A stretch of DNA of 33,693 nucleotides from assembly GCF_000710465.2 (NCBI RefSeq), contig NZ_JAIZ01000181.1:1-33693 (forward strand), written 5' to 3'. This document shows, in pieces, positions 1 through 25,101 of the stretch. Each line of letters starts with the position of its first letter. The first letter of the stretch is position 1. This DNA is from Kitasatospora sp. MBT63 (GTDB taxonomy: Bacteria; Actinomycetota; Actinomycetes; Streptomycetales; Streptomycetaceae). The notes beneath the pieces are model-generated. The model did no database searches. It was not told the DNA's origin and saw nothing but the letters and a program-made list of their open reading frames with translations. A program made the position numbers and the translations under genes.

Positions 1-939
1 GTCACCCGCCTGGTCAGCCGCATCCGCACCGAACTCGGCGGCGAACTCCCCGTCCGCGCCCTGTTCGACACCCCGACCGTGGCCGGCCTGGCCGGGCGGC
101 TCGACGGCGTCGGCGGTGAGGCGCTCACCCCGCTGCTGCCGCTGCGGCCTACGGGCACCCGCCTCCCGCTGTTCTGCATCCACCCGGGCCTCGCGGTGGG
201 CTGGAGCTACGCCGGCCTGCTGCCGCACCTGCCGGCCGACCTGCCGGTGTACGCCCTCCAGGCCCGCGGGCTGGACGGCACCGGCGATCAACTGCCCTCC
301 TCCGTCGAGGAGATGGCCGCCGACTACCTGGCCACGATCCGCGAGGTCCAGCCGGCCGGCCCGTACCGGCTGCTGGGCTGGTCGTTCGGCGGCATGCTCG
401 CCGCGGCGGTCGCCGCCGGGCTCCGGGAGCAGGGGGCGGAGGTCGAACTGCTCGCGGTGCTCGACGCCTACCCCGACTGGACCGGCGGCCCCGAGGAGGC
501 CCCGGCACCGGCCGCGCGCGGCGAGCGTGCGGAGCTGATCGAGATCCTGGCGGGTCTGGGCATCCTGCCCGAACGCGCCCCGGAGCCCGCACCCGGTGAG
601 GAACCGGCCGCGCCCCGCGACCAGTTCCGGCAGATCCTGCACTCCGCCTACCCGGAACTGGCCGACCTCGACGAGCGCTCGTCCGAGGCCCTGATCGAGG
701 TGCTGCTCAACAACCAGCGGATCGGCGACGCCCACCGCGCACCCGCGTTGGACACCGATGTGCTCCTGGTCGTCGCTCGGCGGACCGAGCCGGCCGACCT
801 GCCGAAGCCGTCCGCCTGGCGGCGGCAGACCTCCGGTGCGGTGGAGGTCCACGGCGTGGACAGCTCGCACGCCGAGCTGATGACCGGCCGGTCCGCGGCG
901 GAGATCGGGCGCGTGCTGACCGCGAGGCTCGGCGGCTGA
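1..939 (+). CDS. Nonribosomal peptide synthetase, C-terminal end (carrier protein tail + type I thioesterase), 5' partial
   Basis: The reading frame is open from base 1, so this is the 3' end of a larger gene; 312 residues are visible. The first ~33 residues resemble the last helices of a peptidyl carrier protein, ending in the typical LFDTPTVAGLA stretch; its phosphopantetheine serine lies outside the window. An alpha/beta-hydrolase thioesterase follows, with FCIHPG near the oxyanion region, the nucleophile motif GWSFGG (Ser about residue 128, codon at 382-384), the acid in LAVLDAYPDW and the catalytic His in SSHAEL. In the family, such a domain releases the finished peptide by hydrolysis or macrocyclisation; which one occurs cannot be read here. 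It is followed 54 bp later by the tailoring genes, so the cluster's assembly line must lie upstream of the window. Confidence 0.93.
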   Translation, partial: VTRLVSRIRTELGGELPVRALFDTPTVAGLAGRLDGVGGEALTPLLPLRPTGTRLPLFCIHPGLAVGWSYAGLLPHLPADLPVYALQARGLDGTGDQLPSSVEEMAADYLATIREVQPAGPYRLLGWSFGGMLAAAVAAGLREQGAEVELLAVLDAYPDWTGGPEEAPAPAARGERAELIEILAGLGILPERAPEPAPGEEPAAPRDQFRQILHSAYPELADLDERSSEALIEVLLNNQRIGDAHRAPALDTDVLLVVARRTEPADLPKPSAWRRQTSGAVEVHGVDSSHAELMTGRSAAEIGRVLTARLGG

Positions 940-993: not shown

Positions 994-1971
994 ATGACGT
1001 CTCCTGCACGACACCTGATCTCGATCTCCGACCTGGAGGACGACGACCTGCGCCACATCGTGGCCCGGGGCGCGCAGTTCGCCGACGGTGGACGGCCGTA
1101 CCCGCAGACCCTCGACGGTGACGTCGTCGGCATCTACTTCAAGAGGTCCTCGACCCGTACCCGTACCGCCTTCTCCAGCGGATCGCTGCGCCTGGGCGCC
1201 CGGATCGTCACGTACCAGAACGGCGACCTGCAGCTGGCGACCGGCGAGACCCTGGAGGACACCGGCGACATCCTGTCGCGGATGCTCGACGTGCTGGTCG
1301 CCCGGACCGCGGAGCCGACCGCGGACCTGCGCGCGCTGGCCGCCCGCGGATCGATGGCGGTGGTCAACGCGATGAGCGCGGAGGAGCACCCGACCCAGGC
1401 GCTGACCGATCTGACCGCGCTGCAGCGGCACTTCGGCCGGATCGAGGGCCTGCGGGTGCTCTACCTGGGCGAGGGCAACAACACGGCGTCCGCGCTCGCG
1501 CTGGCCCTCAGCCGCTTCCCCGGCACCGAGCTGCACCTGCGCACCCCCGCCGGGTACGGGCTGGACGCCGGCTATCTGGCCGAGGCCGCCAAGCAGGCCG
1601 AGGCGTACGGATCCGTGGTCACCGAGCGCCACGACATGGACGGGCTGCCCGAGGGCGTCGACGTCATCTACACCACCCGCTGGCAGACCACCGGGACCAC
1701 CAAGCCCGACCCGAACTGGCGTGAGGTGTTCGCACCGTTCCAGGTCCGGGCCGAGCTGTGGGCGTCCAGCCCGGACGCCGTCTTCCTGCACGACCTGCCC
1801 GCCCACCGCGGCGAGGAGGTCACCGCCGAGGTACTGGACGGGCCCGCCAGCATCGCCTTCTGGCAGGCCGAGCACAAGCTGTACAGCGCCATGGCCGTCC
1901 TGGAGTGGTGCGCCCGCGGCCGTACCGCCGAGACCGCGGCACCCGACAACTCCCCGGAGACCCAGGCATGA
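994..1971 (+). CDS. Ornithine-carbamoyltransferase-family transcarbamylase with altered acceptor site
   Basis: The protein has 325 residues, a normal length for aspartate/ornithine carbamoyltransferases. The carbamoyl-phosphate side is intact: S-T-R-T-R at residues 53-57, a VART segment near residue 106, and HPTQ at 132-135. The amino-acid side is not ornithine-like. The usual DxxxSMG loop reads TTRWQTTG (227-234) and the usual HCLP reads HDLP (266-269). I infer that it carbamoylates an amine other than ornithine. With SbnA/SbnB-type genes in the same cluster, Dap to beta-ureidoalanine is the simplest proposal, by analogy with the OTC-like step proposed in viomycin/capreomycin biosynthesis. 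Supply of citrulline or carbamoylation of a carrier-bound residue are alternatives. The stop overlaps the next start as ATGA. An earlier ATG at 978 is out of frame. Confidence 0.85.
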   Translation: MTSPARHLISISDLEDDDLRHIVARGAQFADGGRPYPQTLDGDVVGIYFKRSSTRTRTAFSSGSLRLGARIVTYQNGDLQLATGETLEDTGDILSRMLDVLVARTAEPTADLRALAARGSMAVVNAMSAEEHPTQALTDLTALQRHFGRIEGLRVLYLGEGNNTASALALALSRFPGTELHLRTPAGYGLDAGYLAEAAKQAEAYGSVVTERHDMDGLPEGVDVIYTTRWQTTGTTKPDPNWREVFAPFQVRAELWASSPDAVFLHDLPAHRGEEVTAEVLDGPASIAFWQAEHKLYSAMAVLEWCARGRTAETAAPDNSPETQA

Positions 1972-3335
1972 GCACCACCGACAACCTCACCGCGGCGGCC
2001 ACGGTGGCCGAGCCCGCGCCGCTGAGCCGCAACCGCGACTTCCGGCTGCTGTGGGCGGGCACCGCGTTCTCCTCGCTCGGCTCGCAGGTCAGTACCTTCG
2101 CCTACCCGCTGATCGTGCTCTGGTCCGGCGGCACGGTCGCTCAGGCCGGGCTGACCGGCGCTGCCGCCAGCCTGCCGCAGCTGCTGTTCTCGCTGTTCGC
2201 CGGCGTGCTGGTGGACCGGTTCGACCGCCGCCGCCTGATGATCGGCTGCAACGTGGGCCGGGCCGCGGCGCTCGGTGTGCTGGTCGCGACGATGGTCTCC
2301 GGGCACGTGATCCTCCCGCTGCTGCTGGCGGTGGCGTTCGCCGAGGCGAGCCTCACCGTCGTGTACAAGCTGGCCGAGCACTCCGCGGTCCGCAACGTGG
2401 TCGACCCGGAGCACCTGTCCCAGGCCGTCTCGCAGAACGAGGCGCGGGTCCAGGGCGCCGGACTGCTCGGCCAGCCGCTGGCCGGCGCGCTGTCCTCGGT
2501 GCTGGCCTGGCTGCCGCTGCTGTTCACGCTGGTCTCGCACCTGGTGTCGCTGGCCACCCTGTCCGGTATCAAGCGCAAGTTCCAGGTCGAGCGGGACACC
2601 GCCGACGAGCCGCGCAACGTGTTCGGCGACATCGCCGACGGCGTCAAGTGGCTGTGGAACCACAAGCAGTTGCGGGCCGCCGCCGCCGTGGTCGCGATCA
2701 GCAACATGCTCTTCGAGGTGCTGGTGCTCGGCATGCTGACCACACTGCGCGACACCGGCACCGAGCAGGTCGTGGTCGGCCTGGTGATGGGTGCGGCCGG
2801 GGTCGGCGGGGTGGCGGGTGCGCTGAGCACCAACTGGTGGATGGCGCGGCTGCCGCTGCCGGTGATCGTGATCGGCGCCAACGCCGTCTGGACGGTGCTC
2901 TTCCCCCTGGTCGTCCTGCTGCACAACCCGCTGCTGTTCGGCCTGGTGATCACCCCGATGTCGTTCATCGGCGCGATGTGGACCATCGCCGTGGTCTCCT
3001 TCCAGGTCGAGATCACCCCGGACGACATGCAGGGCCGGATCGCCAGCGTGATCGGCATCGTGGCGTTCGGCACCCTCCCGCTGGGCGCGCTGCTCGGCGG
3101 CTACACCCTCCAGGCGTTCGGCTTCCGTGACTCGGTGCTGGCCTGCAGCGCGGTGATGCTGCTGCTCACCCTGGCCGCCGCGGCGAGCCCCTCGCTGCGC
3201 CGGATCGGCTCCGAGCTGCGCGAGCGCGCCGCCGCCGAGGCCGCGGCCGAGGCAGCCGCCGAGACCACCTCCGAGGCGCCCGCCGTGCCGGCCGCCGAGG
3301 ACCGTACCCCGACCCCGACCCCCGCAGGGAAGTGA
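1968..3335 (+). CDS. MFS transporter, EntS-like exporter family
   Basis: This 455-residue integral membrane protein has about 12 hydrophobic segments. It shows the LSRNRDFRLLWAG start and the DRFDRRRL loop 2-3 motif typical of MFS_3/enterobactin-exporter-like transporters. The C-terminal ~45 residues are a low-complexity Ala/Glu/Pro/Thr tail, probably cytosolic and disordered. The chosen ATG overlaps the upstream stop (ATGA, 1968-1971) and gives a protein that begins just before the conserved region; the longer open frame from 1758 only reads through the preceding gene. Its place between biosynthetic genes suggests export of, and self-protection against, the peptide product. Substrate specificity cannot be read from sequence. 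Confidence 0.9.
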   Translation: MSTTDNLTAAATVAEPAPLSRNRDFRLLWAGTAFSSLGSQVSTFAYPLIVLWSGGTVAQAGLTGAAASLPQLLFSLFAGVLVDRFDRRRLMIGCNVGRAAALGVLVATMVSGHVILPLLLAVAFAEASLTVVYKLAEHSAVRNVVDPEHLSQAVSQNEARVQGAGLLGQPLAGALSSVLAWLPLLFTLVSHLVSLATLSGIKRKFQVERDTADEPRNVFGDIADGVKWLWNHKQLRAAAAVVAISNMLFEVLVLGMLTTLRDTGTEQVVVGLVMGAAGVGGVAGALSTNWWMARLPLPVIVIGANAVWTVLFPLVVLLHNPLLFGLVITPMSFIGAMWTIAVVSFQVEITPDDMQGRIASVIGIVAFGTLPLGALLGGYTLQAFGFRDSVLACSAVMLLLTLAAAASPSLRRIGSELRERAAAEAAAEAAAETTSEAPAVPAAEDRTPTPTPAGK

Positions 3336-3342
3336 CCACGCC

Positions 3343-5103
3343 ATGACCGACCTGATCCAGTCGACCGCGCGGCACGCCCGCGAGATCCCCGACCACGAGG
3401 CCGTCGTCTTCGTCAGCGGCTACGGCGAGGACGCCGTCACCCGCACCCTGACCTACGGCCAACTGGCCCAGGACGCCCAGTCGGTGGCCGCCGAGCTGCG
3501 TCTGCACTGCGAACCCGGCGACCGGGTGCTGCTGCTCTTCCCGACCGGCCTGGAGTTCGTCAAGGGCTTCCTCGGCTGTCTGTACGCCGGCCTGGTACCG
3601 GTGCCGGTCCCGCTGCCCGGCCGTGGCTCCGGCCAGCGCCGCCGCACCACCGGCGTCCTCCAGGACTGCGGCGCGACCGCCGTCCTGACCGACACCGCCA
3701 CCCACCCGGAGGTCGCGGACTGGCTGGAGCAGGAGGAGCAGTCGCACGTCCGCACCGTCGTCACCGAGGCCGCGCCGCCGGTCGCCCCGGACCGGTACGC
3801 GTGGCCCGCCCCCGCGCCGGAGCAGCTCGCCTTCCTGCAGTACACCTCCGGCTCGACCAGCGACCCCAAGGGCGTCATGGTCGGCCACGGCAACCTCGAC
3901 CACAACTTCGGCGAACTGCGCGCCCTGCTCGACGTCGGCCCCGGCTCCACCGTCTGCAGCTGGCTGCCGCTCTTCCACGACATGGGCCTGATCGCCGCCC
4001 TGCTGCTGCCGCTCGACAGCGGCCTGCGGACCGTGCTGATGCCGCCGACCGACTTCGTCCGCCGCCCGTACGCCTGGCTGGAGCTGATCCACACCTACCG
4101 GGCGACCCACAGCTACGCGCCGAACTTCGGCTACAACCTGGCAGCCCGCACCGTCACCGACGAACTGCTGTCCCGGCTCGACCTGTCCGCCTGGCGCTGC
4201 GCCGCCAACGGCGCCGAACCGGTCCACGCGCAGACCATGGACCTGTTCGCGAAGCGGCTCGCCCCCACCGGCTTCCGGGCCGACGCGATGCGCCCGGCGT
4301 ACGGCCTGGCGGAGGCCACCCTCGGGGTGACCGCCACCCCCGTCGGCCACGAGCCCCGGGTCGCCCTGGTGGACGCGGCCGACCTGGAGCGCAACCGGTT
4401 CCGGCCCCGGCCGGACGGCGCGCCGCTGGTCAGCTGCGGCGCCCCGGCGGGCCTCGAGGTACGGATCGTCGACCCGGCGACCCGTCAGGTGCTGGCCGAC
4501 GGCGAGGTCGGCGAGATCTGGCTGCGCGGCGGCTCGCTCGCACCCGGCTACTGGGAGAAGCCCGAGGTCAACGCCGAGGTCTTCGACGTCGCCACCGCCG
4601 ACGGCGACCGCGGCCACCTGCGCACCGGCGACCTCGGGGTGCTGCACGAGGGCGAGCTCTACGTCACCGGCCGCATCAAGGACCTGCTGATCGTCAACGG
4701 CCGCAACCTCTACCCGCACGACATCGAACGGGAGAGCACCGGCCTGCACCCGGCGTTCGGCGGCCTGACCGCCAGCGTCTTCTCCGTCCCCGGCGGCAGC
4801 TCCGGCGAGGACCTGGTGGTGGTCCAGGAGGTCCGCCAGGCCAGGCTCGCCGGCACCGGCCTCGACACCCTGGCGGGCGAGGTCAAGCTCGCGCTCAGCC
4901 GCAGCCTCGGCGTCCCCGTCGGCAACGTGGTGCTGCTCAAGCCCGGCAAGGTGCAGCGCACCACCAGCGGCAAGGTGCAGCGCTCCCGGATGCGGCAGCT
5001 GTTCGTCGCCGGCGAGCTGGACCCGCTGCACGAGGACCTCGCCCCGCGCACCCGCGACCGGTACCGGCCGGCGGCCGTCACCGAGGACGGGGCGGACGCG
5101 TGA
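3343..5103 (+). CDS. Fatty acyl-AMP ligase (FAAL)
   Basis: This 586-residue adenylate-forming enzyme carries the ATP loop YTSGSTSDPKGVMV, the SWLPLFHDMGLI and YGLAEAT motifs, RTGDLG and GRIKDLLI. Placement in the FAAL branch rests on the SWLPLFHDMGL segment, the FAAL-like spacing around residues 330-400 and the neighbouring free ACP; a structural alignment would settle it. FAALs make an acyl adenylate and transfer the acyl group to an acyl carrier protein rather than to CoA. The likely partner is the ACP at 8432-8698, which would make this the entry point of the lipid tail. The ATG lies 7 bp after the MFS stop and is preceded by AGGGAAG. The stop overlaps the next start as GTGA. Confidence 0.9.
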   Translation: MTDLIQSTARHAREIPDHEAVVFVSGYGEDAVTRTLTYGQLAQDAQSVAAELRLHCEPGDRVLLLFPTGLEFVKGFLGCLYAGLVPVPVPLPGRGSGQRRRTTGVLQDCGATAVLTDTATHPEVADWLEQEEQSHVRTVVTEAAPPVAPDRYAWPAPAPEQLAFLQYTSGSTSDPKGVMVGHGNLDHNFGELRALLDVGPGSTVCSWLPLFHDMGLIAALLLPLDSGLRTVLMPPTDFVRRPYAWLELIHTYRATHSYAPNFGYNLAARTVTDELLSRLDLSAWRCAANGAEPVHAQTMDLFAKRLAPTGFRADAMRPAYGLAEATLGVTATPVGHEPRVALVDAADLERNRFRPRPDGAPLVSCGAPAGLEVRIVDPATRQVLADGEVGEIWLRGGSLAPGYWEKPEVNAEVFDVATADGDRGHLRTGDLGVLHEGELYVTGRIKDLLIVNGRNLYPHDIERESTGLHPAFGGLTASVFSVPGGSSGEDLVVVQEVRQARLAGTGLDTLAGEVKLALSRSLGVPVGNVVLLKPGKVQRTTSGKVQRSRMRQLFVAGELDPLHEDLAPRTRDRYRPAAVTEDGADA

Positions 5104-6830
5104 AGTACCTGCCGCACGAGCTCGCCGCCGTCTTCGACCGCCGGCTCGGCGACCCGCACGACCCGCTCCAGGCGTTCTCCTACGCCCGCTGCGCGGACCT
5201 CGACGAACGCGAGGAGTTCCCCACCGAGATCTGCCGGCTGCTGGACGAACTCGGGCTCGCCCGCCACTACGTGCCCACCACCCACGGCGGCGCGCTGGAC
5301 AGCTACGAGGACCTCGCCGCGCTGCTGCGCACGGTGGCCCGCCGCGACCTGACGGTGGCCATCGCCCACGTCTCCACCTTCCTCGGCGCCGCCTCCGTGT
5401 GGCTGGCCGGCGAGCGGGCGCAGGCCGACCGGCTGGCGGCGGAGATCCACGACGGCAGCGTGGTCTCGCTCGCCCTGACGGAGCAGCAGCACGGCAGCGA
5501 CCTGCTGGCCAACCGGCTCGCCACCGCCGAGGGCGAGAACTGGTACCGGGTCAACGGCGAGAAGTGGCTGATCGGCAACGCCTCGCGCGGCCAGTTCGTC
5601 TGCGTGCTCGCCCGCACCGACCCCGCGGGCGGCCCGCGCGGCTTCAGCCTGCTGCTGATCGACAAGCGGCAGCTGGCCCCCGGCAGCTTCCGCTGCCTGC
5701 CCGCCGTGCGCACGGTCGGCATCCGGGGCGCCGACATCAGCGGCATCGAGTTCACCGAGGCCGAGATCCCCGCCACCGCCGTGGTCGGCGAGGCCGGCAC
5801 CGGCCTGGAGACGGTCCTGAAGATCCTCCAGCTGACCCGCAGCCTGTGCGGGCCGCTGTCGCTGGGCACCGGCGACCACGCGCTGCGCCTGGCCGTCCGC
5901 TACAGCCTGGACCACCTCGGCCCGGCCGACGGCAGCCCCACCGCGGACCGGCGGCTCACCGAGGCCTACGCCGACCTGCTGGTCGCCGAGGCCGTCACGC
6001 TGGCCGGGATCCGCTCCATCCACGCGCTCACCGGCGAGCTCAGCGTGGTCTCGGCGGCCGTCAAGTGCTTCGTGCCGCACACCGTCGAGCAGCTGATCGC
6101 CGACCTGGGCACCGCGCTCGGCGCCGGGGTCTTCCTCAGCCGCTCCTACCTGCACGGCGCGTTCCAGAAGCTGGAACGCGACCACCACATCATGAGCATC
6201 TTCGACGGCAACACCTTCGTGAACCTCAACGCACTGATCAACCAGTTCCCGCAGCTGGCCGTCGGCCACCGGCGCCGCAAGGTCGACGAGAGCGGCCTGG
6301 CCGCCGCCGTCGACCTGCAGGCCGAGCTGCCGCCGCACGACGGCGCAGCCCTGGAACTGATCTCGCGCACCGGCAGCAGCCTGGTGCAGAGCCTCCCCGC
6401 CGCTCTCACCGAACTCACCGAGCTGGCCGCCCGGCGCGCCGTCCCGGCCGCCGTCGGCCGGTACGCGGACGAACTGCGGGAGATCACCGACGAGCTGCAC
6501 GCCGCGATGGCCGACCACCGGCCCTCGGCCCGTGACGTGCCGCCCGGCGCGTTCGACCTGGCCCGCCGCTGGACCCAGGTGTTCGCCGCGGCGGCCTGCG
6601 TCCAGCTGTGGCTGCGCAACCGCGACGCGGCGGCCGACTCGCCGACCGCCGCGCTGTGGGCCGACGGCCTCTGGCTGGAGGCCGGCCTGGCCCGGCTGCT
6701 GGCCAAGCTGCGCCCGGGCGTGGTCCGCGACGGCGCGGTCTTCGACCGCCTCTCCGACCGGCTCCACGGGCAGTACCGGGACGGCGAGTTGTTCTCGCTG
6801 CTGCACAGCCGGATGGAGGAGACGGTATGA
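5100..6830 (+). CDS. Acyl-CoA dehydrogenase-like flavoprotein 1 (probably acts on acyl-ACP)
   Basis: The GTG start at 5100 overlaps the FAAL stop (GTGA) and gives 576 residues; the longer open frame upstream reads through the FAAL gene. Acyl-CoA dehydrogenase signatures are present: ALTEQQHGSDL in the flavin-binding region (about residues 127-137), VNGEKWLIGNAS, and IFDGNTFVNLNAL in the C-terminal helical domain. In ramoplanin, enduracidin and calcium-dependent lipopeptide clusters, FAAL-ACP-dehydrogenase sets introduce double bonds into the ACP-bound fatty acid, and I infer the same role here. It is longer than a classic ~380-residue dehydrogenase; the extra C-terminal helical region (~470-576) has no recognised motif. 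It is a paralogue of the next gene (both share RTVARRDL). Confidence 0.87.
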   Translation: MKYLPHELAAVFDRRLGDPHDPLQAFSYARCADLDEREEFPTEICRLLDELGLARHYVPTTHGGALDSYEDLAALLRTVARRDLTVAIAHVSTFLGAASVWLAGERAQADRLAAEIHDGSVVSLALTEQQHGSDLLANRLATAEGENWYRVNGEKWLIGNASRGQFVCVLARTDPAGGPRGFSLLLIDKRQLAPGSFRCLPAVRTVGIRGADISGIEFTEAEIPATAVVGEAGTGLETVLKILQLTRSLCGPLSLGTGDHALRLAVRYSLDHLGPADGSPTADRRLTEAYADLLVAEAVTLAGIRSIHALTGELSVVSAAVKCFVPHTVEQLIADLGTALGAGVFLSRSYLHGAFQKLERDHHIMSIFDGNTFVNLNALINQFPQLAVGHRRRKVDESGLAAAVDLQAELPPHDGAALELISRTGSSLVQSLPAALTELTELAARRAVPAAVGRYADELREITDELHAAMADHRPSARDVPPGAFDLARRWTQVFAAAACVQLWLRNRDAAADSPTAALWADGLWLEAGLARLLAKLRPGVVRDGAVFDRLSDRLHGQYRDGELFSLLHSRMEETV

Positions 6831-8362
6831 GCGAGCACCTTTCCACCCGTCCCCGCACCGCCCGGCTGGAGGCCCTGCTCGGCGACCCGCTCGCCCCGGG
6901 CAACCCGCTCGGCCTGGACGCCGTGGTGGCCGCCGACGAACGCGCCGAACTGCCCGCCGCCGGCGTGCGGGCCCTGGACACCTACGGCTTCAACGCCGAG
7001 CTGGTGCCCGCGGCCCTCGGCGGCCGGCTCACCCGGGCCGACGAACTCGCCGAGGCGTTCCGCACCGTCGCCCGCCGCGACCTCGGCCTCGCCGCCGGGT
7101 ACGGCCTCGGCAGCCTCACCGCCGGCCTGCACGTGTGGCGCAGCGGCAACCCCGGCCAGCAGGCGGCCCTCGCCGCCCTGCTGCTCGGGGACCGCCGGGT
7201 CGCCACCGCGCACGCCGCACCCGGCGCGGGCCTGCGCGCCACCCGCGACGGCGGTGAGCTGGTGGTCTCCGGCAGCGAACACCTGGTCGGCGATCCGGCC
7301 GCCGCCGAGGCGATCCTGCTGCCCGTCACCCTCGACGGGGGCACCGCCCACCTGCTGCTTCCCGCCGACCCCGGCCTCACCGTCTCCCCGCCGCACAGCG
7401 GCACCGGCCTGCGCGGTTGCCGGTTCAGCGCGGTCCGCGCCGACGGCCTGCGGGTCTCCGCGGACCGCCTGGTCGGCACGGACGGCGCCGGCCGGGCCGA
7501 CGCCGCAGCCGTGCGGCGGATCACCGGTACCGTCGTCGCCTCCGCCCTGGTCGGCGTGCTGGACACCGAGCTGCGCACCGCGCTGTCCTTCGCCGACGAG
7601 CGGATCCTGTACGGCCGGCCCGTCACCGGCCTGCCGAGCGCCCGCGCGCTGCTCGCCGACGCGTTCCTGGACCTGCTGATCGCGGACTGCTGCACCACCG
7701 TCGCCGCCCGCGCCCTGCACCTGCACCCCGGCCGCGCCACCTACCAGAGCACCGCCCAGCACCTGGTGGCCGGCCTGGTACGGGACGCCGTCCACCAGCT
7801 GTCGCTGCTCCTGGGGGCCCGCTCGTACCTGCGGGAGGGCCCGCACGCGGTGTTCCAGAAGCACCTGCGGGACCGGACGGCGCTGGCGGCGCTGCACGGC
7901 TCACCGCCGCCCGCCGCACCGCCGGCCGGGCCCGCCGAGGAGCCGCTGACGGCCCTGTTCGAGGCGGCCGGGCAGCTGCCCGCGCTGGACCTGGCGCTGA
8001 TCGGTCCGGCGGCCACCGGGCCCGACGCACTGGCCGCCACCCTCGGCGCCCTGCCCGCGGAGCTGGCCGACCGGCACCCCGAACTCGTCGCCCTGGCGGC
8101 CCCGCTGGCCGGGGACCCGGGCGGTACCGGGTTCGCCGCCGCGGCCTGCCTGCGGCTCTGGTGGCACGGACACGCCGGCCGGGACGGCTTCCTCGGCCGG
8201 CCCGACTGGATCCACGCCGCACTCCACCGCCTCGCCGCACGCACCGGACGCCCGGCGGTCCCCGCCGCCGCGGACCGCGACCCGCTGCTCCTCGAGGAGC
8301 TGCGCACCCGCCTCCAGCAGGGCCGCACCTTCGACCTGGCCGACCGTCCGCCCGCGCGCTGA
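6827..8362 (+). CDS. Acyl-CoA dehydrogenase-like protein 2, degenerate paralogue of its neighbour
   Basis: The ATG at 6827 overlaps the previous stop (ATGA), giving 511 residues. Homology to the upstream gene shows in shared blocks: a GDPLAPGNPL start resembling GDPHDPLQAF, RTVARRDL, and FQKHLRD beside FQKLERD. The flavin-region motif TEQQHGSD of gene 1 is replaced by AAPGAGLR. The DGNTF segment is gone, leaving an Ala/Pro-rich linker after AALHG. This looks like tandem duplication followed by loss of residues in one copy. I infer a structural or regulatory partner in a heteromeric dehydrogenase, as in the alpha2beta2 FadE pairs of mycobacteria; an independent second desaturase is less likely. 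Confidence 0.8.
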   Translation: MSEHLSTRPRTARLEALLGDPLAPGNPLGLDAVVAADERAELPAAGVRALDTYGFNAELVPAALGGRLTRADELAEAFRTVARRDLGLAAGYGLGSLTAGLHVWRSGNPGQQAALAALLLGDRRVATAHAAPGAGLRATRDGGELVVSGSEHLVGDPAAAEAILLPVTLDGGTAHLLLPADPGLTVSPPHSGTGLRGCRFSAVRADGLRVSADRLVGTDGAGRADAAAVRRITGTVVASALVGVLDTELRTALSFADERILYGRPVTGLPSARALLADAFLDLLIADCCTTVAARALHLHPGRATYQSTAQHLVAGLVRDAVHQLSLLLGARSYLREGPHAVFQKHLRDRTALAALHGSPPPAAPPAGPAEEPLTALFEAAGQLPALDLALIGPAATGPDALAATLGALPAELADRHPELVALAAPLAGDPGGTGFAAAACLRLWWHGHAGRDGFLGRPDWIHAALHRLAARTGRPAVPAAADRDPLLLEELRTRLQQGRTFDLADRPPAR

Positions 8363-8431: not shown

Positions 8432-8698
8432 ATGCCCGAGACCACCATCGACACCTCCGCCGAGGCCATCGCCGAGTGGCTGACCGGCCGCGTCGCCTAC
8501 TACCTCGACCGGCCCGTCACCGAGCTGCAGCCCGACGTCAAGCTGGTCGAGTACGGCCTCGACTCGGTCTACGGGATGAGCCTGATCACCGAGATCGAGG
8601 ACCGCTTCGACCTGGAGCTGGAGTCCACCCTGGCCTGGGACCATCCCACCATCGCCGCCATCACCGGCTACCTGCACGGCCTCGTGGGGCAGCGTTGA
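8432..8698 (+). CDS. Free-standing acyl/peptidyl carrier protein
   Basis: The 88 residues form a single carrier-protein domain, with the phosphopantetheine attachment motif YGLDSV (Ser45) and the following helix MSLITEIEDRFDLEL. It is expected to be converted to holo form by a phosphopantetheinyl transferase encoded elsewhere. Its position directly after the FAAL and two dehydrogenase-like genes and directly before a lone condensation domain suggests that it holds the fatty acyl chain during desaturation and delivery to the peptide. The ATG has only a weak purine stretch (GGCAGGAA) upstream. The 69 bp before it are C-rich and hold no gene. The stop overlaps the next start as TTGA. Confidence 0.92.
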   Translation: MPETTIDTSAEAIAEWLTGRVAYYLDRPVTELQPDVKLVEYGLDSVYGMSLITEIEDRFDLELESTLAWDHPTIAAITGYLHGLVGQR

Positions 8699-10110
8699 CC
8701 GCCGGCCCGGCCGGGCACGAGGTCTCGCTCGGCCAGGAGGCCCTGTGGTTCCTGCAGCGCCTGGCCCCCGCCAGCCCGGCCTACAACGTCGCGATGGCGG
8801 TCCGGATCCGCCAGGCCGTCGACGACGACGCCCTGCGGCGCGCCGCCGCCGCCGTCGCCGACCGGCACGAACTGCTGCGCTCGCGCTTCACCGAACGCGA
8901 CGGGCGCCCCCGCCGGAGCACCGTCGGCGCGCTGCCCGGCCTGCTGGAGATCCGCGAGGTGCCCGGCGCGAGCGACGAGGAGCTGAACGCCGCCGCCCGG
9001 CAGACGGTCGCCCGGCCCTTCGACCTGACCGAGGCGGGCCCGGTCCGGATCCTGCTGCTGCGCCGCGCCGCCGAGGACTCCGTGCTGCTGCTGGCCGCCC
9101 ACCACGCGGTCACCGACGGCGCGTCCCAGGTCATCGTCCTGGAGGACCTGCTGACGGCCTACGCCGCCGAGGTCCGGGGCACGGCGCCCGGCTGGCCGCA
9201 GCCGCTGCGCCCGTACCAGGAGTACGTCACCGCGGAGCGGGAGCTGCTGGACTCGCCCCGGCGGGCCGAACTCGCCGACCACTGGCGGCAGGTGTGCGCC
9301 GGGGCGCCGTCCGCACTGGAACTGCCCACCGACCGGCCGCGTCCGGCCCGCAAGCGGTTCACCGGTGCGAGCCGGGACTTCCGGCTGCCCGAGGAGCTGG
9401 CCCGCGCCCTGCGGCCGGCCGCGGCGGCCGCCGGGGTGACCCCGTTCGTGCTGCTGTTCGGCGCGTTCCAGGCCCTGCTGTACCGGTGGAGCGCCCAGCC
9501 GGACTTCCTGGTCGGCTACGCCGTCAGCACCCGGCCCGAACGCACCATGCGCAACACGGCCGGCTACTTCGTCAACACCTTGCCCTGCCGGGCCGACTTC
9601 GGGGCGGCCGACCTGACGTACCGGCAGCTCATGGCGCAGGTCTCCGGTCAGCTCCGGCAGGGCCTGGCCCACCGCGACCTGCCGCTGCCGCTGCTGCCGG
9701 CCGAACTCGGCCTGCCGCACGACCCCAGCCGCACCCCGGTGTTCCAGAGCATGTTCAGCCTGATCACCGCGACCCGGTTCCAGCCGCTGCTGGAACTGCT
9801 CGCCCCCGAGGACCATGCCAAGTCCGAACTGGTCCACCACGGACTGCGGTTGACCGGCTTCGACCTGCCGCAGCAGGAGGGCCAGTTCGACCTGAGCGCC
9901 GAGGTGCTGCAGACCGACGCGGCGGTCAAGGTGGCGTTCAAGTACGACACCGACCTGTTCGACCCGGCCACCGTGGACCGGATGGCCGGCCACTACCGGC
10001 TGCTGCTGGCCGCCGCGGTCGCCGACCCGGACCAGCCGGTCCGGCGGACCGAGCTGGTCACGGCGGCCGAGCGGGAGACCCTGCTCTCGTTCGCCACGGC
10101 CGCCTGGTAG
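8695..10110 (+). CDS. Stand-alone NRPS condensation domain
   Basis: I chose TTG at 8695 because it overlaps the carrier-protein stop (TTGA), has GGGG five bases upstream, and begins just before the conserved SLGQEALWFLQRL motif (C1). The longer open frame reads through upstream genes in another frame. The protein has 471 residues and is a single condensation domain. It has the catalytic HHAVTDG (H136, H137, D141), the C4/C5-like GYAVSTRPERTMRNTAGYFVNTLP region and a PVFQSMF segment. No adenylation, carrier or epimerase part follows. The catalytic motif is intact, so activity is expected. I infer a chain-initiating role, joining the ACP-bound acyl group to the first aminoacyl carrier. Addition of a side-chain acyl or amino acid in trans is an alternative. 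Confidence 0.9.
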   Translation: MTAGPAGHEVSLGQEALWFLQRLAPASPAYNVAMAVRIRQAVDDDALRRAAAAVADRHELLRSRFTERDGRPRRSTVGALPGLLEIREVPGASDEELNAAARQTVARPFDLTEAGPVRILLLRRAAEDSVLLLAAHHAVTDGASQVIVLEDLLTAYAAEVRGTAPGWPQPLRPYQEYVTAERELLDSPRRAELADHWRQVCAGAPSALELPTDRPRPARKRFTGASRDFRLPEELARALRPAAAAAGVTPFVLLFGAFQALLYRWSAQPDFLVGYAVSTRPERTMRNTAGYFVNTLPCRADFGAADLTYRQLMAQVSGQLRQGLAHRDLPLPLLPAELGLPHDPSRTPVFQSMFSLITATRFQPLLELLAPEDHAKSELVHHGLRLTGFDLPQQEGQFDLSAEVLQTDAAVKVAFKYDTDLFDPATVDRMAGHYRLLLAAAVADPDQPVRRTELVTAAERETLLSFATAAW

Positions 10111-10292: not shown

Positions 10293-11435
10293 ATGCCAGC
10301 ACAGAACGGTCACCAGGACTGCACCGTGTCGACGATGCCACGGCCTGCCGCGTGTCCGCCGGCTGCGCCGGACGTTCTCGACCCGGTGGCGGACGGCCTC
10401 CCGGCCCCGGTCGGATCCGGCGGTACGGCCGGCGCGCTGCGCGCCCGGCTGGCCGTGCTGGCCGCCACCTTCGCCGAGACCCCGCTGGTGCGGATCGAGG
10501 ACGACGCGGTGGACCTCCACGCCAAGCTGGAGTACTGCAACCCGAACGGCAGCTCCAAGGACCGCTCGGCGTTCTGGATCCTCAAGGGAGCCGTCGAACG
10601 CGGCGAGATCACCGCCGAGACCACCGTGGTGGAGTCGTCCTCCGGCAACTTCGCCATCTCGATGGCCGCCTTCTGCCGCACCCTCGGCATCCGCTTCGTG
10701 CCGGTGATCGACCCCAACTGCAACCAGCTCACCGAGGCCTACCTCGGCATCATGTGCGACCGGGTGGAGAAGGTCACCGAGCGCGACCCCAGCGGCGGCT
10801 ACCTGACCACCCGCCTGGACCGGGTCAAGCAGCTGCAGACCGAGTACCGGCACGTCTACTGGCCCAACCAGTACGCCAACGAGGACGCCCTGCTCGCGCA
10901 CTACCGGACGACCGGCGGCGAACTCTGCGCCGCCCTGCCGAAACTGGACTACGTCTTCCTGGGCGTCAGCACCGGCGGCACCATCGCCGGCGTCTCCCGG
11001 CGGGTCAAGGAGGAGCACCCCGCGGCGACCGTGGTCGCCGTCGACGCCGCCGGATCGGCGATCTTCGGCCAGCCGCCGCAGGCCCGGCTGCTGCCCGGCC
11101 TCGGCTCCAGCCTGGTGCCGCCGCTGTGCGACCGCGCGCTGATCGACGACGTGGTCATCGTCCCCGAACCGGCCGCCGTCCAGGGCTGCCTGGAACTGGT
11201 CCGCCGGCACGGCCTTTACACCGGCGGCTCCACCGGCAGCGTGTACGCCGCCATCCGCCACTACTTCGGCCGCCGCCCGGCCGGCGGCGCCCGGCCGACC
11301 GTCGCCTTCCTGTGCGCCGACCGCGGCACCGCGTACGCGGAGACCGTGTACGACGCCGACTGGGTCGCCCGGTCCTTCGCCGACCGGCCCGTCCCCGACG
11401 GCTGGCCGGGTGCCGCCCTGCCGTCGGCGCTCTGA
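10293..11435 (+). CDS. sbnA: SbnA-like N-(2-amino-2-carboxyethyl)-L-glutamate synthase (Dap pathway, PLP enzyme)
   Basis: The protein has 380 residues and a cysteine synthase/OASS-like fold. The PLP lysine sits in NGSSKDRS (K89). SSSGNFAISMAAF is the Asn loop that binds the substrate carboxylate, and GVSTGGTIAG is the phosphate-binding loop. SbnA-type enzymes join O-phospho-L-serine and L-glutamate to give ACEGA, which SbnB then oxidises. The SbnB-type gene directly follows, which supports this call over plain cysteine synthase. The ATG at 10293 has GGAGA about 10 bases upstream. The N-terminal ~45 residues are poorly conserved-looking, and a GTG at 10327 is a possible shorter start. The symbol is used by family homology; in peptide clusters this gene has other local names. 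Confidence 0.88.
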   Translation: MPAQNGHQDCTVSTMPRPAACPPAAPDVLDPVADGLPAPVGSGGTAGALRARLAVLAATFAETPLVRIEDDAVDLHAKLEYCNPNGSSKDRSAFWILKGAVERGEITAETTVVESSSGNFAISMAAFCRTLGIRFVPVIDPNCNQLTEAYLGIMCDRVEKVTERDPSGGYLTTRLDRVKQLQTEYRHVYWPNQYANEDALLAHYRTTGGELCAALPKLDYVFLGVSTGGTIAGVSRRVKEEHPAATVVAVDAAGSAIFGQPPQARLLPGLGSSLVPPLCDRALIDDVVIVPEPAAVQGCLELVRRHGLYTGGSTGSVYAAIRHYFGRRPAGGARPTVAFLCADRGTAYAETVYDADWVARSFADRPVPDGWPGAALPSAL

Positions 11436-11523: not shown

Positions 11524-12558
11524 GTGACCGACACCCCGAGCACCCCGCTCACCCTGCCCCAGCTGCGCGTCCTGACCGGCGCGGACGTGCTGCGCCAGGT
11601 CGAGGGGAACCGCGCCACCTGCGTGGACGTGGTCCGCCGCGCGTACGTCACGCACGCGGCCGGCCGGAGCGTCAACCCGGAGAGCGCGTTCCTGCGCTTC
11701 CCGCACAAGCCGAACTCGCGGATCATCTCGCTGCCGGCCTACCTGGGCGGCGAGTTCGAGGTGGCGGGCATCAAGTGGATCGCCAGCTTCCCGGACAACC
11801 CGGCCCGCGGCATCCCGCGCGCCTCGGCCGTGCTGCTGCTCAACGACACCGAGAGCGGCTACCCGATCGCCGCGATGGAGTCCTCGGTGATCTCCGCCAG
11901 CCGTACCGCGGCCTCCGCCGTGCTGGGCGCCGAGGCCCTGGTGGGCGGGCGCCGGGTGGAGCGGATCGGCCTGGTCGGCGCGGGGCTGATCGGCGGCCAC
12001 GTGTGGAAGTTCCTGCGCGACCTCAACTGGCAGTTCGGCGGCTTCCGGATCTTCGACCTGGACCGCGCGCACGCCGAGCGGTTCGCGCAGACCCTCAAGG
12101 CGGACGGCGTCCAGGACGTCGAGGTGGTCGAGGAGGCGGCCGGCGCCTTCACCGACTGCGACCTGGTGATCCTCACCACCGTCGCCGGGGAGCCGCACCT
12201 GACCGACCCCGCCCTGCTCGCCCACGCCCCCGTCGTCCTGCACCTGTCGCTGCGTGACCTGGCTCCCGAACTGATCCTGGGCGCCCAGAACTTCACCGAC
12301 GACATCGACCACGCGGTCCGCGAGCGGACCTCCCTGCACCTGGCCGAACAGCTGGTCGGGCACCGGGACTTCGTCCACGGCACCATCGCCGACCTGCTGG
12401 CCGGCACGGTCAGCCGCGACCCGGAGCGGGCGGCCGTGTTCTCCCCGTTCGGCCTGGGCGTACTGGACCTGGCGGTCGGCAAGTGGGTGCACGACGCGGT
12501 CCTCGCGGCCGACGGCGGCCAGCAGGTGCCGGACTTCTACGGCGAGGCCGTGCGCTGA
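11524..12558 (+). CDS. sbnB: SbnB-like N-(2-amino-2-carboxyethyl)-L-glutamate dehydrogenase (ornithine cyclodeaminase family)
   Basis: This 344-residue protein belongs to the ornithine cyclodeaminase/mu-crystallin family. The Rossmann nucleotide-binding motif GLVGAGLIGGHV lies at about residues 155-166. The N-terminal half has FPHKPNSRIISLPAYLGG and GIKWIASFPDN, typical of the SbnB branch. SbnB oxidises and hydrolyses ACEGA to L-2,3-diaminopropionate plus 2-oxoglutarate using NAD. Paired with the preceding gene it forms the two-step Dap route known from staphyloferrin B, viomycin and related pathways. The GTG start has GAGGAG eight to thirteen bases upstream. It is the last gene of the cluster-like + strand run; the next gene starts 30 bp downstream but is of a housekeeping-type orphan family. 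Confidence 0.9.
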   Translation: MTDTPSTPLTLPQLRVLTGADVLRQVEGNRATCVDVVRRAYVTHAAGRSVNPESAFLRFPHKPNSRIISLPAYLGGEFEVAGIKWIASFPDNPARGIPRASAVLLLNDTESGYPIAAMESSVISASRTAASAVLGAEALVGGRRVERIGLVGAGLIGGHVWKFLRDLNWQFGGFRIFDLDRAHAERFAQTLKADGVQDVEVVEEAAGAFTDCDLVILTTVAGEPHLTDPALLAHAPVVLHLSLRDLAPELILGAQNFTDDIDHAVRERTSLHLAEQLVGHRDFVHGTIADLLAGTVSRDPERAAVFSPFGLGVLDLAVGKWVHDAVLAADGGQQVPDFYGEAVR

Positions 12559-12588: not shown

Positions 12589-13053
12589 ATGCAGATCCGC
12601 ATCGAGGCCACCGCCCTGCCGGGCCGCCACTGCCCGGCCGGCCCCGGCTTCCCGGGCGCGAGCGACATCCACGTGGGCGTGCAGCGCAAGGACCGCCCGG
12701 CCGAACTGCTCGGCCTGCTGCCCGCCGACGCGCCGTCCGCCGTCTGGACCCTGGACTGCACCGCCGTCCCGGGGCCGGACGGCATCGCGCTGCGCGGCCC
12801 GTACCTGCAGAACCGGCTCGGCGGCCGGTTCGTGTACCTGTCCTGGCTGGCCGCGGACGGCGCGGGCGGGCTGGCGATGTTCCGCCGGGCCAAGCTGATG
12901 CTCGACGCCGTGACCCCCGCGACGCTGGCCGCCGCCGTCGAGGGCGGCCGGCTCACCGCCCGGCTGGGGCTCACCGACTCAGCCGGGCTGCCGCTGTGCG
13001 CGGCGGTCCGGCCGCCGCTGATCAGCTGGAGCGCCGGTCCGGACCCGGCCTGA
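12589..13053 (+). CDS. DUF5990-like protein
   Basis: This small soluble protein of 154 residues has no signal peptide or membrane segment. The pattern VGVQRKDRPAELLG, then DGIALRGPYLQNRLGGRFVYLSWLA and MFRRAKLMLD, matches what I remember of the actinobacterial DUF5990 family (ligand unknown). It begins with ATG shortly after the sbnB-like gene; no strong ribosome binding site is visible (GGCAGG lies about 20 bases upstream), so it may be co-transcribed. Nothing links it biochemically to the peptide cluster. It converges on the AlkB-like gene, and both stop codons lie within one hairpin. Confidence 0.7.
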   Translation: MQIRIEATALPGRHCPAGPGFPGASDIHVGVQRKDRPAELLGLLPADAPSAVWTLDCTAVPGPDGIALRGPYLQNRLGGRFVYLSWLAADGAGGLAMFRRAKLMLDAVTPATLAAAVEGGRLTARLGLTDSAGLPLCAAVRPPLISWSAGPDPA

Positions 13054-18759: not shown

Positions 18760-19848
18760 TCAGCAGATCCGCGGCAGCTGTTCGCCGATCGGCAGGTCCA
18801 CCACCCGGGTGCCGCCGAGGCCGGTCCGGGCCACCACCATGCCGTGGTGCTCGTCGACGCACTCGCCGATCACCGCCGCCCCGACGCCCTGCGGGTGGGC
18901 CCGCATCGCTTCCAGCACCGCGTCCGCGCTCTCCCGGGGCACGAAGGCGACCAGCTTGCCCTCGTTGGCGACGTAGAACGGGTCCAGGCCGAGGATCGCG
19001 CAGGCGTTGGCCACCAACTGCGGTACCGGAACGGCGCGTTCCCTGATCACCACGCCGGTCCCGGCCGCGGCGGCGATCTCGTTGAGCGAGGCGGCGAGCC
19101 CGCCGCGGGTGGGGTCGCGCAGCACGTGCAGGTCGGGTTCGACCGCCAGCATGGCCTGGACCAGCCCGGCCAGCGGCGCGCTGTCGCTGCGCACGTCCGC
19201 GCCGAACTCCAGCCCCTCGCGCACGCTCATCACCGCGACGCCGTGCACCCCGATCTCGCCGCTGACGATCACCACGTCGCCGGGCCGGGCCCGCTGCGGC
19301 CGGAGGTCGACCCCGTCCGGGATCAGGCCGATCCCGGCCGTGTTGAGGTAGATGCCGTCGCCGTGGCCGGACTCGACCACCTTGGTGTCACCGGTGGCGA
19401 TCTCCACCCCGGCGGCCCGTGCGGCGGCCCCGACCGCCTGGGCGACCCGGGCCACCACCGAGGTCTCCACCCCTTCCTCCAGGATGAACCCGCAGGACAG
19501 GTAGGCCGGCCGGGCACCCGCCATGGCCAGGTCGTTGACGGTGCCGTTGACCGCGAGGTCGCCGATGCTGCCGCCGGGGAAGAACAGCGGCCGCACCACG
19601 TACGAGTCGGTGGAGAACGCCAGCCGTGCCCCGCCGAGCGTCACCGTGGCCGCGTCACCGCCCTGCTCCAGCACCGGGCCGCCGTACGCGGGGGCGAACA
19701 CGTGCTGGACCAGTTCCGCGGACAGCACCCCGCCGCCGCCGTGCCCGAGGACGATCCGCGGCTGGTCGCGCAGCGGCAGCGGACAGCTCCAGCCGTCGAA
19801 GTCCGGCGCGGGCGCGGCCGTGCTCTCGACATCTGTCAGCTCAGCCAA
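18760..19848 (-). CDS. hypE: Hydrogenase maturation protein HypE (cyanide-ligand synthesis)
   Basis: This 362-residue protein of the PurM/AIR-synthase-like ATPase fold carries [34 protein letters not shown] and RDPTRGGLA. It ends in the conserved C-terminal PRIC, whose cysteine receives the carbamoyl group from HypF and is dehydrated with ATP to thiocyanate, the cyanide donor for the active-site iron. The start is TTG at 19848. An in-frame stop lies three codons upstream, and a full GGAGGTGA ribosome binding site sits five bases before TTG. The gene overlaps the end of hypD by 8 nt. It is the last gene of the hydrogenase operon. Confidence 0.96.
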
Positions 19849-20995
19849 CGGAACTCACCTCCCGGCTGCCGACCGCGGCCGAGCCGCCGGCGGCGGCCGG
19901 GGCGCCGGTGCCGAGCCGCCGGTAGAGGTAGTACGCGGCGCAGGCGCCCTCGCTGGAGACCATGGTCGCCCCGAGCGGGGTGCGCGGTGTGCAGACGGTC
20001 CCGAAGGCGCCGCACTCGTGCGGCTTCAGCAGCCCCTGCAGCACCTCCCCGCTGCGGCACTCCGCCGGTTCGACGGTGGTGATCCCGCCCACCGAGAACC
20101 GCCGCTCCGCGTCGAACTCGCGGTACTTCTCCGATAGTTGCCAGCCACTGCCGGGGATGGTGCCGATACCGCGCCAGGCCCGGTCGGTGACCTCGAAGAC
20201 GTCCTCGATCATCGCCCGGGCGGCCGGGTTGCCCTCCTCCCGCACCGCCCGCGGGTACGCGTTCTCCACCTTCGCCTCGCCGCGCTCCAACTGCCGTACG
20301 GCCAGCCGGACCCCCTCCAGGATGTCCAGCGGCTCGAAGCCGGTCACCACGATCGGCACCCGGTAGCGTTCGGCCAGCTCCGGGTACTCCGCGGTGCCCA
20401 TCACCGAGCAGACGTGCCCGGCGGCCAGGAAGCCCTGCACCCGGCAGGTCGGCGACTCCATCAGCGCCATGATCGCCGGGGGCACCCGTACGTGCGAGAC
20501 GAGCAGGCTGAAGTTGCGGATGCCGAGCCGGCTCGCCTGGTGGACCGTCATGGCGTCGGGGGGCGCGGTGGTCTCGAAGCCGATCCCGAAGAAGACCACC
20601 TGCCGCTGCGGGTTGTCCTGGGCGATCCGCAGCGCGTCCAGCGGCGAGTACACCACCCGGACGTCACCGCCGGCGCTCTTGACCTGGAACAGGTCCCGGT
20701 CACTGCCCGGCACCCGCAGCATGTCCCCGAACGAGCAGAAGATCACCCCGGGCCGGGCGGCGATCTCCAGCGCCTTGTCGATCACCTCCAGCGGGGTGAC
20801 GCACACCGGGCAGCCCGGCCCGTGGATCAACTCGATCTCCTCGGGCAGCAGTTGGTCGAGCCCGTGCCGGATGATGCTGTGCGTCTGGCCGCCGCAGACC
20901 TCCATCAGCGCCCACGGCCGGGTGACCGTGGCCCGGATGTCCGCCAGCAGCCGCTGCGCCAGCGCCGGATCCTGGAACTCCTCGAGATACCTCAC
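19841..20995 (-). CDS. hypD: Hydrogenase maturation protein HypD (iron-sulfur scaffold for Fe(CN)2CO)
   Basis: The protein has 384 residues. [28 protein letters not shown] and [19 protein letters not shown] are the conserved HypD blocks. The C-terminal region has the cysteines that hold the [4Fe-4S] cluster ([26 protein letters not shown]). HypD forms a complex with HypC on which the Fe(CN)2CO unit is assembled. GTG 20995 overlaps the hypC stop (GTGA) with GGGGAGGAG upstream, and the sequence MRYLEEF that it starts is typical. A ~30-residue Gly/Ala/Ser-rich tail follows the conserved end. Confidence 0.96.
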
Positions 20996-21285
20996 CGCTG
21001 CTCCTCCCCGCCGGCCGCCGCCTCGGCCGCCGACACCCATGGGTCACCGAACTCCTCCTGCAGCGCGCCGATCTCGGCGAACAGCTCCAGGGTCCGCAGC
21101 GCCGACTCCTCGTCCAGCTTCTGCAGGGCGAAGCCGACGTGCACGATGGCGTACTCCCCGACCTCCAGGTCGGGCAGGTACTCCAGGCAGACGTCCTTGA
21201 CCACGCCGCCGAAGTCCACCACCGCCATCCGGGTACCGTCGCGCTCCTCGATCTCCAACACCTTGCCGGGCACCGCCAGGCACAT
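20992..21285 (-). CDS. hypC: Hydrogenase assembly chaperone HypC
   Basis: The 97 residues begin with MCLAVPGKV; Cys2, exposed after loss of Met, binds the iron fragment and contacts the large-subunit precursor and HypD. The beta-barrel strands [19 protein letters not shown] and [19 protein letters not shown] are conserved. The C-terminal part, [20 protein letters not shown], is a little longer than in E. coli. A GGAGAG site precedes the ATG. The gene lies 26 bp after hypF and overlaps hypD by 4 nt (GTGA). Confidence 0.95.
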
Positions 21286-21311
21286 GGCTCTCTCCTCGCC
21301 TCGTCGTACGG

Positions 21312-24436: not shown

Positions 24437-24440
24437 GGGC

Positions 24441-24824
24441 TCACAGCTCCTCGGCTCGGGGAACGCGGATGTCGCCGCCGGACCAGTGCACGGCGGTGAT
24501 CTGGAGTTCGCGGCCGGACACCAGCTCGGTGCCGGTGCCGCTGCCGCAGGTCGGGCAGACCAGGTCGGGCGGCATGCCGGGGGCCCAGCCGGTACCGCAC
24601 GGGCCGCACTCGGCGAGCGCGGGGACCGGCTCGATCCGCAGTTCGGCGCCGGCCAGGACGGTGCCCTCGCAGACCAGGTCGAAGCCGAACCGCAGCGCGT
24701 CGGGCACCACCCCGGCCAACTCGCCGACCTGGAGGTTGACCTGGTGCGCGGTCGAGCCGGCCCGGGCCTCGCTGCTGGCCTCGACCTGGTCGACGATCGC
24801 CTGCGCGATCGACATCTCGTGCAT
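24441..24824 (-). CDS. hypA: Hydrogenase nickel-incorporation metallochaperone HypA
   Basis: The 127 residues begin with MHEMSIAQ; the N-terminal Met-His-Glu is the nickel site of the family. The zinc domain has two Cys pairs, ECGPCG and VCPTCG. The conserved VNLQVGELAGVVPDALRF lies between. The ATG has GGAGAG upstream; the open frame reaches further back, but without conserved sequence and into the hairpin region. It is the first gene of the hypABFCDE block and follows a 20-bp perfect inverted repeat that may separate it transcriptionally from the structural genes. Confidence 0.95.
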   Translation of the reverse strand: MHEMSIAQAIVDQVEASSEARAGSTAHQVNLQVGELAGVVPDALRFGFDLVCEGTVLAGAELRIEPVPALAECGPCGTGWAPGMPPDLVCPTCGSGTGTELVSGRELQITAVHWSGGDIRVPRAEEL

Positions 24825-24900
24825 CGGCTCTCTCCGCCCGTCGGGCCCGTGTCCGCCGCCTGGTGCCGCGGGCGGGAGCCCGGCGACGTGGACCATTACA

Positions 24901-24946: not shown

Positions 24947-24979
24947 CGGGCTACTCCGTTTGCCCCAGCGGGGCGCGCC

Positions 24980-25084: not shown

Positions 25085-25101
25085 GGTCGGGCATTCCTCT
25101 C

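Follow-up and report, generated by a model that had tools for sequence, protein, structure and literature searches.

A putative L-2,3-diaminopropionate transcarbamylase and a candidate adenylation-domain code for beta-ureidoalanine in a Kitasatospora lipopeptide cluster

What tells the transcarbamylases of peptide assembly apart from ornithine transcarbamylase (OTC)? L-2,3-diaminopropionate (Dap) transcarbamylase (DPTCase) is an enzyme kind already known, both from the tuberactinomycins (VioL of viomycin, CmnL of capreomycin) and outside them, in zwittermicin A. According to the accessible part of PMC4581275, the mark of a DPTCase is (T/S)RWQTTG in the 240's loop together with HDLP. The 2,4-diaminobutyrate (Dab) transcarbamylase (DBTCase) of padanamide likewise has HDLP and TRWQ, its loop reads TRWQSMG, and the same source calls the TTG/SMG boundary between the two enzymes unclear. 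The accessible text of a 2018 review (PMC6022934) agrees on the settings in which DPTCases occur. A second relevant system is rotihibin. As described in the available portion of PMC8552735, its cluster holds a fatty-acyl-AMP ligase (FAAL), two acyl-CoA dehydrogenases and an acyl carrier protein (ACP), a set proposed there to load and desaturate the fatty acid and compared with ramoplanin; the peptide begins with lipo-D-citrulline, and module 2 is a C-T module lacking an adenylation (A) domain. The first module, thought to take citrulline, was predicted to select Glu or Ser, and the gene table in that portion lists no citrulline-synthesis gene, no transcarbamylase and no SbnA/SbnB (PMC8552735).

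The window analysed here is the whole of contig C181, 33,693 nucleotides, from the draft genome of Kitasatospora sp. MBT63 (9.85 Mb, 845 contigs). The first 13 kb cover the 3' portion of a nonribosomal peptide synthetase (NRPS) cluster, with every gene on the plus strand. The gene at 994-1971 (+; ATG start, GC3 = 0.93) encodes a protein of 325 residues with the Pfam domains OTCace_N (E 3.7e-34) and OTCace (E 1e-33); its closest solved structures are OTCs, and the OTC-type fold is not in doubt. A preliminary description of this gene had claimed that the carbamoyl-phosphate site is intact and the acceptor site rebuilt, and both points hold. STRTR occupies residues 53-57 (1150-1164, +) and HPTQ residues 132-135 (1387-1398, +), while in an alignment to the solved OTC 1a1s the segment TRWQTTG falls on the ornithine loop DVWASMG and HDLP (residues 266-269; 1789-1800, +) falls on HCLP. 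The complete acceptor loop, TTRWQTTG (residues 227-234; 1672-1695, +), is the DPTCase form of the DxxxSMG loop, with TTG in place of SMG. One further change goes beyond those listed earlier: in FxKxSTRT, Arg replaces the Lys (YFKRSSTRTR). The VioL/CmnL and zwittermicin A enzymes are alike in (T/S)RWQTTG, HDLP and the carbamoyl-phosphate motifs, and their genes likewise lie near an NRPS and SbnA/SbnB-like genes; the zwittermicin enzyme, absent among the plasmid matches listed (40 of 88), is likened to ours from its published description.

Curated profiles separate the protein from its better-known relatives. On TIGR00658 (OTC) it scores 235.4 bits, below the cut-off of 280.85, and on TIGR04384 (putrescine transcarbamylase) it reaches 175 bits against a cut-off of 500. 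The same genome encodes two ArgF proteins that score 405.1 and 398.2 bits on TIGR00658; we take these to be the arginine enzymes, and the 994-1971 protein is thus dispensable for arginine synthesis. It resembles ArgF in fold and carbamoyl-phosphate site and differs in its acceptor loop, in the residues at HCLP and in its sub-threshold score.

Of 297 genomes from the same family, 57 gave DPTCase-like matches in a homologue search (E <= 1e-50), and a search with short peptide patterns, one genome per species, returned 53 loci with 52-74% identity to the 994-1971 protein, 51 from Actinomycetota and two from one Acidobacteriota MAG. Our alignment and tree comprise 94 family rows, a few of them identical in sequence, and six outgroup rows. 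HDLP is present in 94 of 94 family rows, and the loop reads RWQTTG in 88, RWETTG in two, RWNTTG in one, RWQTMG in two and RWNTMG in one; the rebuilt acceptor pattern is therefore not a chance feature of one gene. A branch supported at 100/98 unites the two ArgF of the source genome, the putrescine enzyme and another two OTCs outside the family; the family's own branch has support of 94/90, and the position of PyrB is unreliable, its branch being extremely long. The 994-1971 protein pairs with the locus of a sister genome, G163 (97/87), whose transcarbamylase is 91% identical. Two rows that we name viomycin-type (L079 and L086), and hence take to be VioL, on the strength of gene order and strain rather than a curated record, form, together with L077, G227 and G007, a five-member subgroup of the family (100/99). 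In L086 (S. californicus) the order is SbnA-like gene, NRPS genes at the VioF and VioG positions, dehydrogenase, SbnB-like gene and transcarbamylase, which we presume to be the vio order. These two rows belong to the same tree group as our protein but are only 52-54% identical to it. The tree, the check asked of the preliminary assignment, accordingly sets the 994-1971 protein with the viomycin-type VioL rows and apart from true OTCs and the putrescine enzyme.

Family, motifs and tree position can be read from the sequence directly; the substrate is what we predict from them. The (T/S)RWQTTG loop, HDLP, SxRTR with HPxQ, the grouping with VioL and the Dap genes of the cluster support assignment of the protein as a DPTCase that would use Dap and carbamoyl phosphate to form beta-ureidoalanine (albizziine). 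Identities as an OTC, a Dab transcarbamylase or a putrescine transcarbamylase were rejected or ranked low by motif, curated cut-off or tree; DxxxSMG, HCLP and a passing TIGR00658 score are all missing, and the loop is TTRWQTTG, not TRWQSMG. The earlier proposal of a Dap beta-N-carbamoyltransferase is thus upheld as to function, to which sequence, tree and Dap-gene linkage all point, and falls as to novelty: it had been put forward as a setting beyond the tuberactinomycins, and the zwittermicin A DPTCase is such a setting already, as the accessible parts of PMC4581275 and PMC6022934 describe.

How closely is this family tied to Dap synthesis? We counted 64 matched places from the 57 genomes (65 rows; a split gene was counted once), recording the nearest above-cut-off SbnB gene on the same contig. 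Among places with at least 60% identity, an above-cut-off SbnB lies within 50 kb in 39 of 47, or in 40 of 47 if G233 is included, where an above-cut-off SbnA and a partial SbnB lie about 29 kb from the transcarbamylase. The rest comprise six with no SbnB on the contig and one whose nearest copy, a partial gene, lies at a distance of 1.4 Mb. Of the places without a nearby SbnB, four are on contigs of 11-16 kb or lie at most about 1 kb from a contig end. Below 60% identity, an above-cut-off SbnB lies within 50 kb in 6 of 17 places, a below-cut-off SbnB-like match within 1.2 kb in three, and neither in eight. The OTC genes of the same 57 genomes served as a control: of 66 above the cut-off, two have an above-cut-off SbnB within 50 kb.

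The acceptor loop itself follows this pattern. An RWQTMG loop occurs in five of the 17 further relatives whose loops were read, and none of the five (one on a contig shorter than 7 kb) has an above-cut-off SbnB within 50 kb. Conversely, four places have no SbnB on the contig despite an RWQTTG loop (G219, G221, G201 and contig C27 of G222; three of the four contigs are truncated), and G026, with an RWRTTG loop, has none on its contig either. The TTG loop is mostly accompanied by Dap genes and the TMG loop, in this small sample, is not. The loci L204-L208 (in G162, G242, G256, G258 and G218) combine RWQTMG with HDLPAVRG and have no SbnB within 50 kb, and L115, another TMG-type locus, has methylaspartate mutase and NRPS genes as neighbours; the acceptor of these enzymes may be a different diamino acid.

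In the window, the DPTCase gene is embedded in what reads as the end of a lipopeptide cluster. Positions 1-939 (+), at the contig edge, hold the 3' end of the last NRPS gene, with a remnant of a peptidyl carrier protein and a thioesterase (Pfam PP-binding, Thioesterase); this stretch matches the terminus of the sister NRPS in G163 with 70% identity. Downstream, an MFS exporter gene (1968-3335, +; Pfam MFS_1/MFS_3) has a start codon that, by a start codon scan, overlaps the DPTCase stop codon. It is followed by a FAAL (3343-5103, +; Pfam AMP-binding, with fatty-acid--AMP ligase models as best NCBIfam matches, below their cut-offs), an acyl-CoA dehydrogenase homologue with a probable role in fatty-acyl desaturation (5100-6830, +; Pfam Acyl-CoA_dh M, N and 1), a second such homologue recognised by profile and sequence comparison (6827-8362, +), a free-standing ACP (8432-8698, +; Pfam PP-binding), and a free-standing condensation (C) domain with an intact HHxxxDG motif (8695-10110, +; Pfam Condensation) that probably condenses the lipid with the first residue. 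The SbnA/SbnB pair named in the preliminary description lies in this same cluster and on the same strand, beginning about 8.4 and 9.6 kb downstream of the DPTCase gene. Both members exceed their curated cut-offs: the SbnA-type enzyme (10335-11435, +; its start is uncertain, 10293 being possible) scores 381.7 bits on TIGR03945 against 349.95, and the SbnB-type enzyme (11524-12558, +) 405.1 bits on TIGR03944 against 326.9. No Dab aminotransferase was detected among the window frames scanned by profile. A DUF5990 gene (12589-13053, +; by Pfam) occupies the same place in the sister cluster, where it is 76% identical, and may mark the cluster edge.

Beyond it, on the minus strand, positions 18760-31861 encode the large and small subunits of a NiFe-hydrogenase, HypA, HypD, HypF and an AIRS-type, HypE-like protein. 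We take this hydrogenase/hyp block (about 18.8-31.9 kb) to lie outside the NRPS cluster. Window positions 18760-21019 also align to G163, beyond the lipopeptide cluster of that genome, and the hydrogenase block next to the lipopeptide cluster is therefore conserved.

We considered, and rejected, the idea that the two dehydrogenases act like VioJ and desaturate ureidoalanine. Compared with the vioJ-position gene of a viomycin-type cluster, dehydrogenase 1 is 30% identical over 142 residues and dehydrogenase 2 is 25% identical over 189, whereas dehydrogenase 1 is closer to the paired dehydrogenases of other DPTCase clusters (55% in G248, 46% in G185 and 46% in G171). On this comparison we read both as lipid dehydrogenases. 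The locus thus differs from viomycin in being a lipopeptide cluster and in showing, given the weak match to the vioJ-position gene, no sign of desaturation to ureidodehydroalanine. With rotihibin it shares the lipid cassette, a ureido amino acid as the proposed first residue and an A-less C-T module near the start; it differs in having a transcarbamylase and SbnA/SbnB, which the rotihibin gene table, in the accessible part of that paper, does not list.

Which residue is placed first? The NRPS of the source genome is split over contigs, and the sister genome G163 holds the entire cluster on one contig, from which nine A-domain codes were read, here as elsewhere with our own motif anchors rather than a standard predictor. 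The first G163 A domain (A1) has the code DAWQFATID and opens the first NRPS; no C domain precedes it, which is consistent with the ACP and the free-standing C domain supplying the acyl group. After A1, this NRPS (L089, 9672-13349, minus strand) continues with a C domain and a carrier protein, without a second A domain. In the source genome the same A domain is found on contig C831 (18455-19969), with 81% identity and the same code; C831 is collinear with the G163 cluster into module 5, and three of its codes are readable. Further codes of the G163 NRPS are DVWSVGMVH, DFWSVGMVH, DLPKSGEVA, DTDDxGYVD and DVFSVA[IV]VY. Modules 6 and 7 of G163 carry the acidic codes DTDDSGYVD and DTDDMGYVD, which may indicate a basic residue, such that Dap may also be used uncarbamoylated.

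The A1 code resembles those for glutamine. The Gln code is DAQDLGVVD, and albizziine is an aza-isostere of glutamine in which NH replaces the gamma-CH2. The VioF position, which we take to be the ureidodehydroalanine module, is occupied in a viomycin-type cluster by an A domain that reads DAQDLAIVD by hand (DAQDIAIVD by script), close to the Gln code, and a Gln-like code may therefore point to beta-ureidoalanine. For both reasons A1 probably loads beta-ureidoalanine. Its Gln-like code would also be compatible with Gln or citrulline, and the A-domain check asked of the preliminary assignment thus agrees with it without being decisive; it is the linked Dap genes and transcarbamylase that make ureidoalanine the best choice.

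Codes of the DA[WL]QxAT[IV]D type recur near related transcarbamylases. With only 10 kb of flank read, they were seen in seven of the 53 named loci; examples are DAWQFATID in Phytohabitans, DAWQCATID in S. albiflavescens and DALQFATID in S. seoulensis. Likewise, two of four plasmid loci have DALQFATVD. Twenty clusters were read over 20-60 kb: a DA.Q code is present in 13 and absent from the part read in seven (G185, G171, G210, G186, the second G066 cluster, G227 and G007), several of these lacking it even with Dap genes in the cluster. The second G066 cluster has another Gln-like code, DAQDVGVVN, and G151, whose cluster is cut by a contig end, has no DA.Q code either. We also searched 150 genomes with the core of G163 A1 (E <= 1e-30), a threshold that hides more distant versions such as the DASQFAHID of G052, and found 28 places, spread over 24 genomes. 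Identity to the query is 56% or more at 19 of them (18 genomes), and all 19 have DA[WL]QxAT[IV]D (17 read by script, two, L175 and L176, by eye from the sequence); all 18 genomes are among the 57 DPTCase carriers. In 15 of the 19 the A domain and the transcarbamylase share a contig and lie within 26 kb of each other; in the other four the A domain is on a separate contig. The other nine places, at 50-55% identity, carry DVWH codes of the Ser type, Ser-type A domains being the nearest other matches to this lineage. The clusters of L116 (S. clavuligerus plasmid pSCL4), L164-L165 (G066) and L217 (G013), whose DPTCases are about 58-62% identical, have a DAQDVGVVN A domain.

We propose the following pathway. 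SbnA and SbnB would make Dap, and the DPTCase would carbamoylate the beta-amino group of Dap, with carbamoyl phosphate as donor, yielding beta-ureidoalanine before adenylation. The first A domain (DAWQFATID) would then activate this residue. The FAAL and the two dehydrogenases together would charge the ACP with a fatty acid and desaturate it, the free-standing C domain, acting on module 1, would join the lipid to the first residue, the thioesterase at 1-939 would finish the chain, and the MFS protein would export the product. On sequence evidence we hold with good confidence that Dap is made, carbamoylated, loaded by A1 and lipid-capped as the first residue of an uncharacterised lipopeptide; we go no higher than this, given the seven of 20 clusters without the code and a VioF link that draws in part on background knowledge of the vio genes.

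Could the enzyme act after loading? A 2023 review, in its accessible part, places VioL carbamoylation on a carrier-bound residue rather than on free Dap (PMC10880069), and by analogy A1 might load Dap for carbamoylation afterwards. An A domain for Dap would be expected to have an acidic code, and the linked one is Gln-like; free Dap is moreover the acceptor in the accessible parts of PMC4581275 and PMC6022934. We therefore regard carbamoylation of carrier-bound Dap as unlikely, and prefer carbamoylation of free Dap.

A different enzyme altogether is less likely still. The gene might encode a cluster-dedicated OTC that supplies citrulline to the NRPS, with Dap used as such elsewhere in the peptide: the fold is that of an OTC, as are the closest solved structures, a Gln-like code could read citrulline, and the similar rotihibin cassette caps a citrulline (accessible part of PMC8552735). 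The loss of the ornithine-binding Asp and SMG, HDLP for HCLP, the score below the OTC cut-off beside two ArgF in the genome, and the tree grouping with VioL-type rows all speak against ornithine as acceptor, as does linkage to Dap genes in 40 of 47 places versus 2 of 66 for OTC genes. Rotihibin, so far as that source describes it, manages with no dedicated citrulline gene (PMC8552735), and we consider a dedicated OTC very improbable. We give slightly less credence again to a padanamide-like Dab transcarbamylase. The padanamide enzyme is alike in HDLP, TRWQ and its OTC branch (PMC4581275, in part), and is set apart by published motif description, with TRWQSMG in its loop where ours reads TTRWQTTG; the scanned window frames yielded SbnA and SbnB and no Dab aminotransferase. 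DPTCase thus remains the assignment that we favour.

The peptide and its ureidoalanine-loading domain look undescribed. In the literature searched, most subscription journals being outside its scope, we found no description of this cluster, of a ureidoalanine lipopeptide or of the A-domain code, and none of six code strings occurs there. More broadly, we lean, by a modest balance of probability, toward the view that an uncharacterised but widespread class of actinobacterial lipopeptides and other NRPS peptides carries beta-ureidoalanine, chosen by a dedicated A-domain lineage with the code DA[WL]QxAT[IV]D that travels with DPTCase and SbnA/SbnB. If so, a gene annotated as ornithine carbamoyltransferase, the label on most annotated Streptomyces plasmid matches (among the matches listed, 40 of 88), would be a marker for beta-ureidoalanine peptides. 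It would also provide an A-domain code for a residue with no published code found in the literature searched, and would allow beta-ureidoalanine to be predicted in silent clusters. Were the first A domain of rotihibin to share the code, it would stand for ureido amino acids in general. The system bears, furthermore, on whether carbamoylation precedes loading, on which the viomycin accounts differ (PMC4581275 and PMC6022934 versus PMC10880069, each in its accessible part).

Finally, we note several observations at the margins of the cluster and of the family. Contig C831 of the source genome (L171, 8353-11777, minus strand) encodes an isochorismatase and a chorismate-binding enzyme upstream of the NRPS; this catechol set may form a siderophore cluster of its own or belong to the lipopeptide cluster. 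The same genome has a second above-cut-off SbnB/SbnA pair on contig C817 (35226-48157); the two genes are separated by about 11 kb, and A domains lie both between them and to either side. The two DPTCase-like genes of the Acidobacteriota MAG (L071 and L074), 56% identical, have the loops RWQTMG and RWNTMG, and L202 (G035) and L209 (G013, contig C54) retain HDLPARRG with loops that read RWCGAG or RWGGSG.
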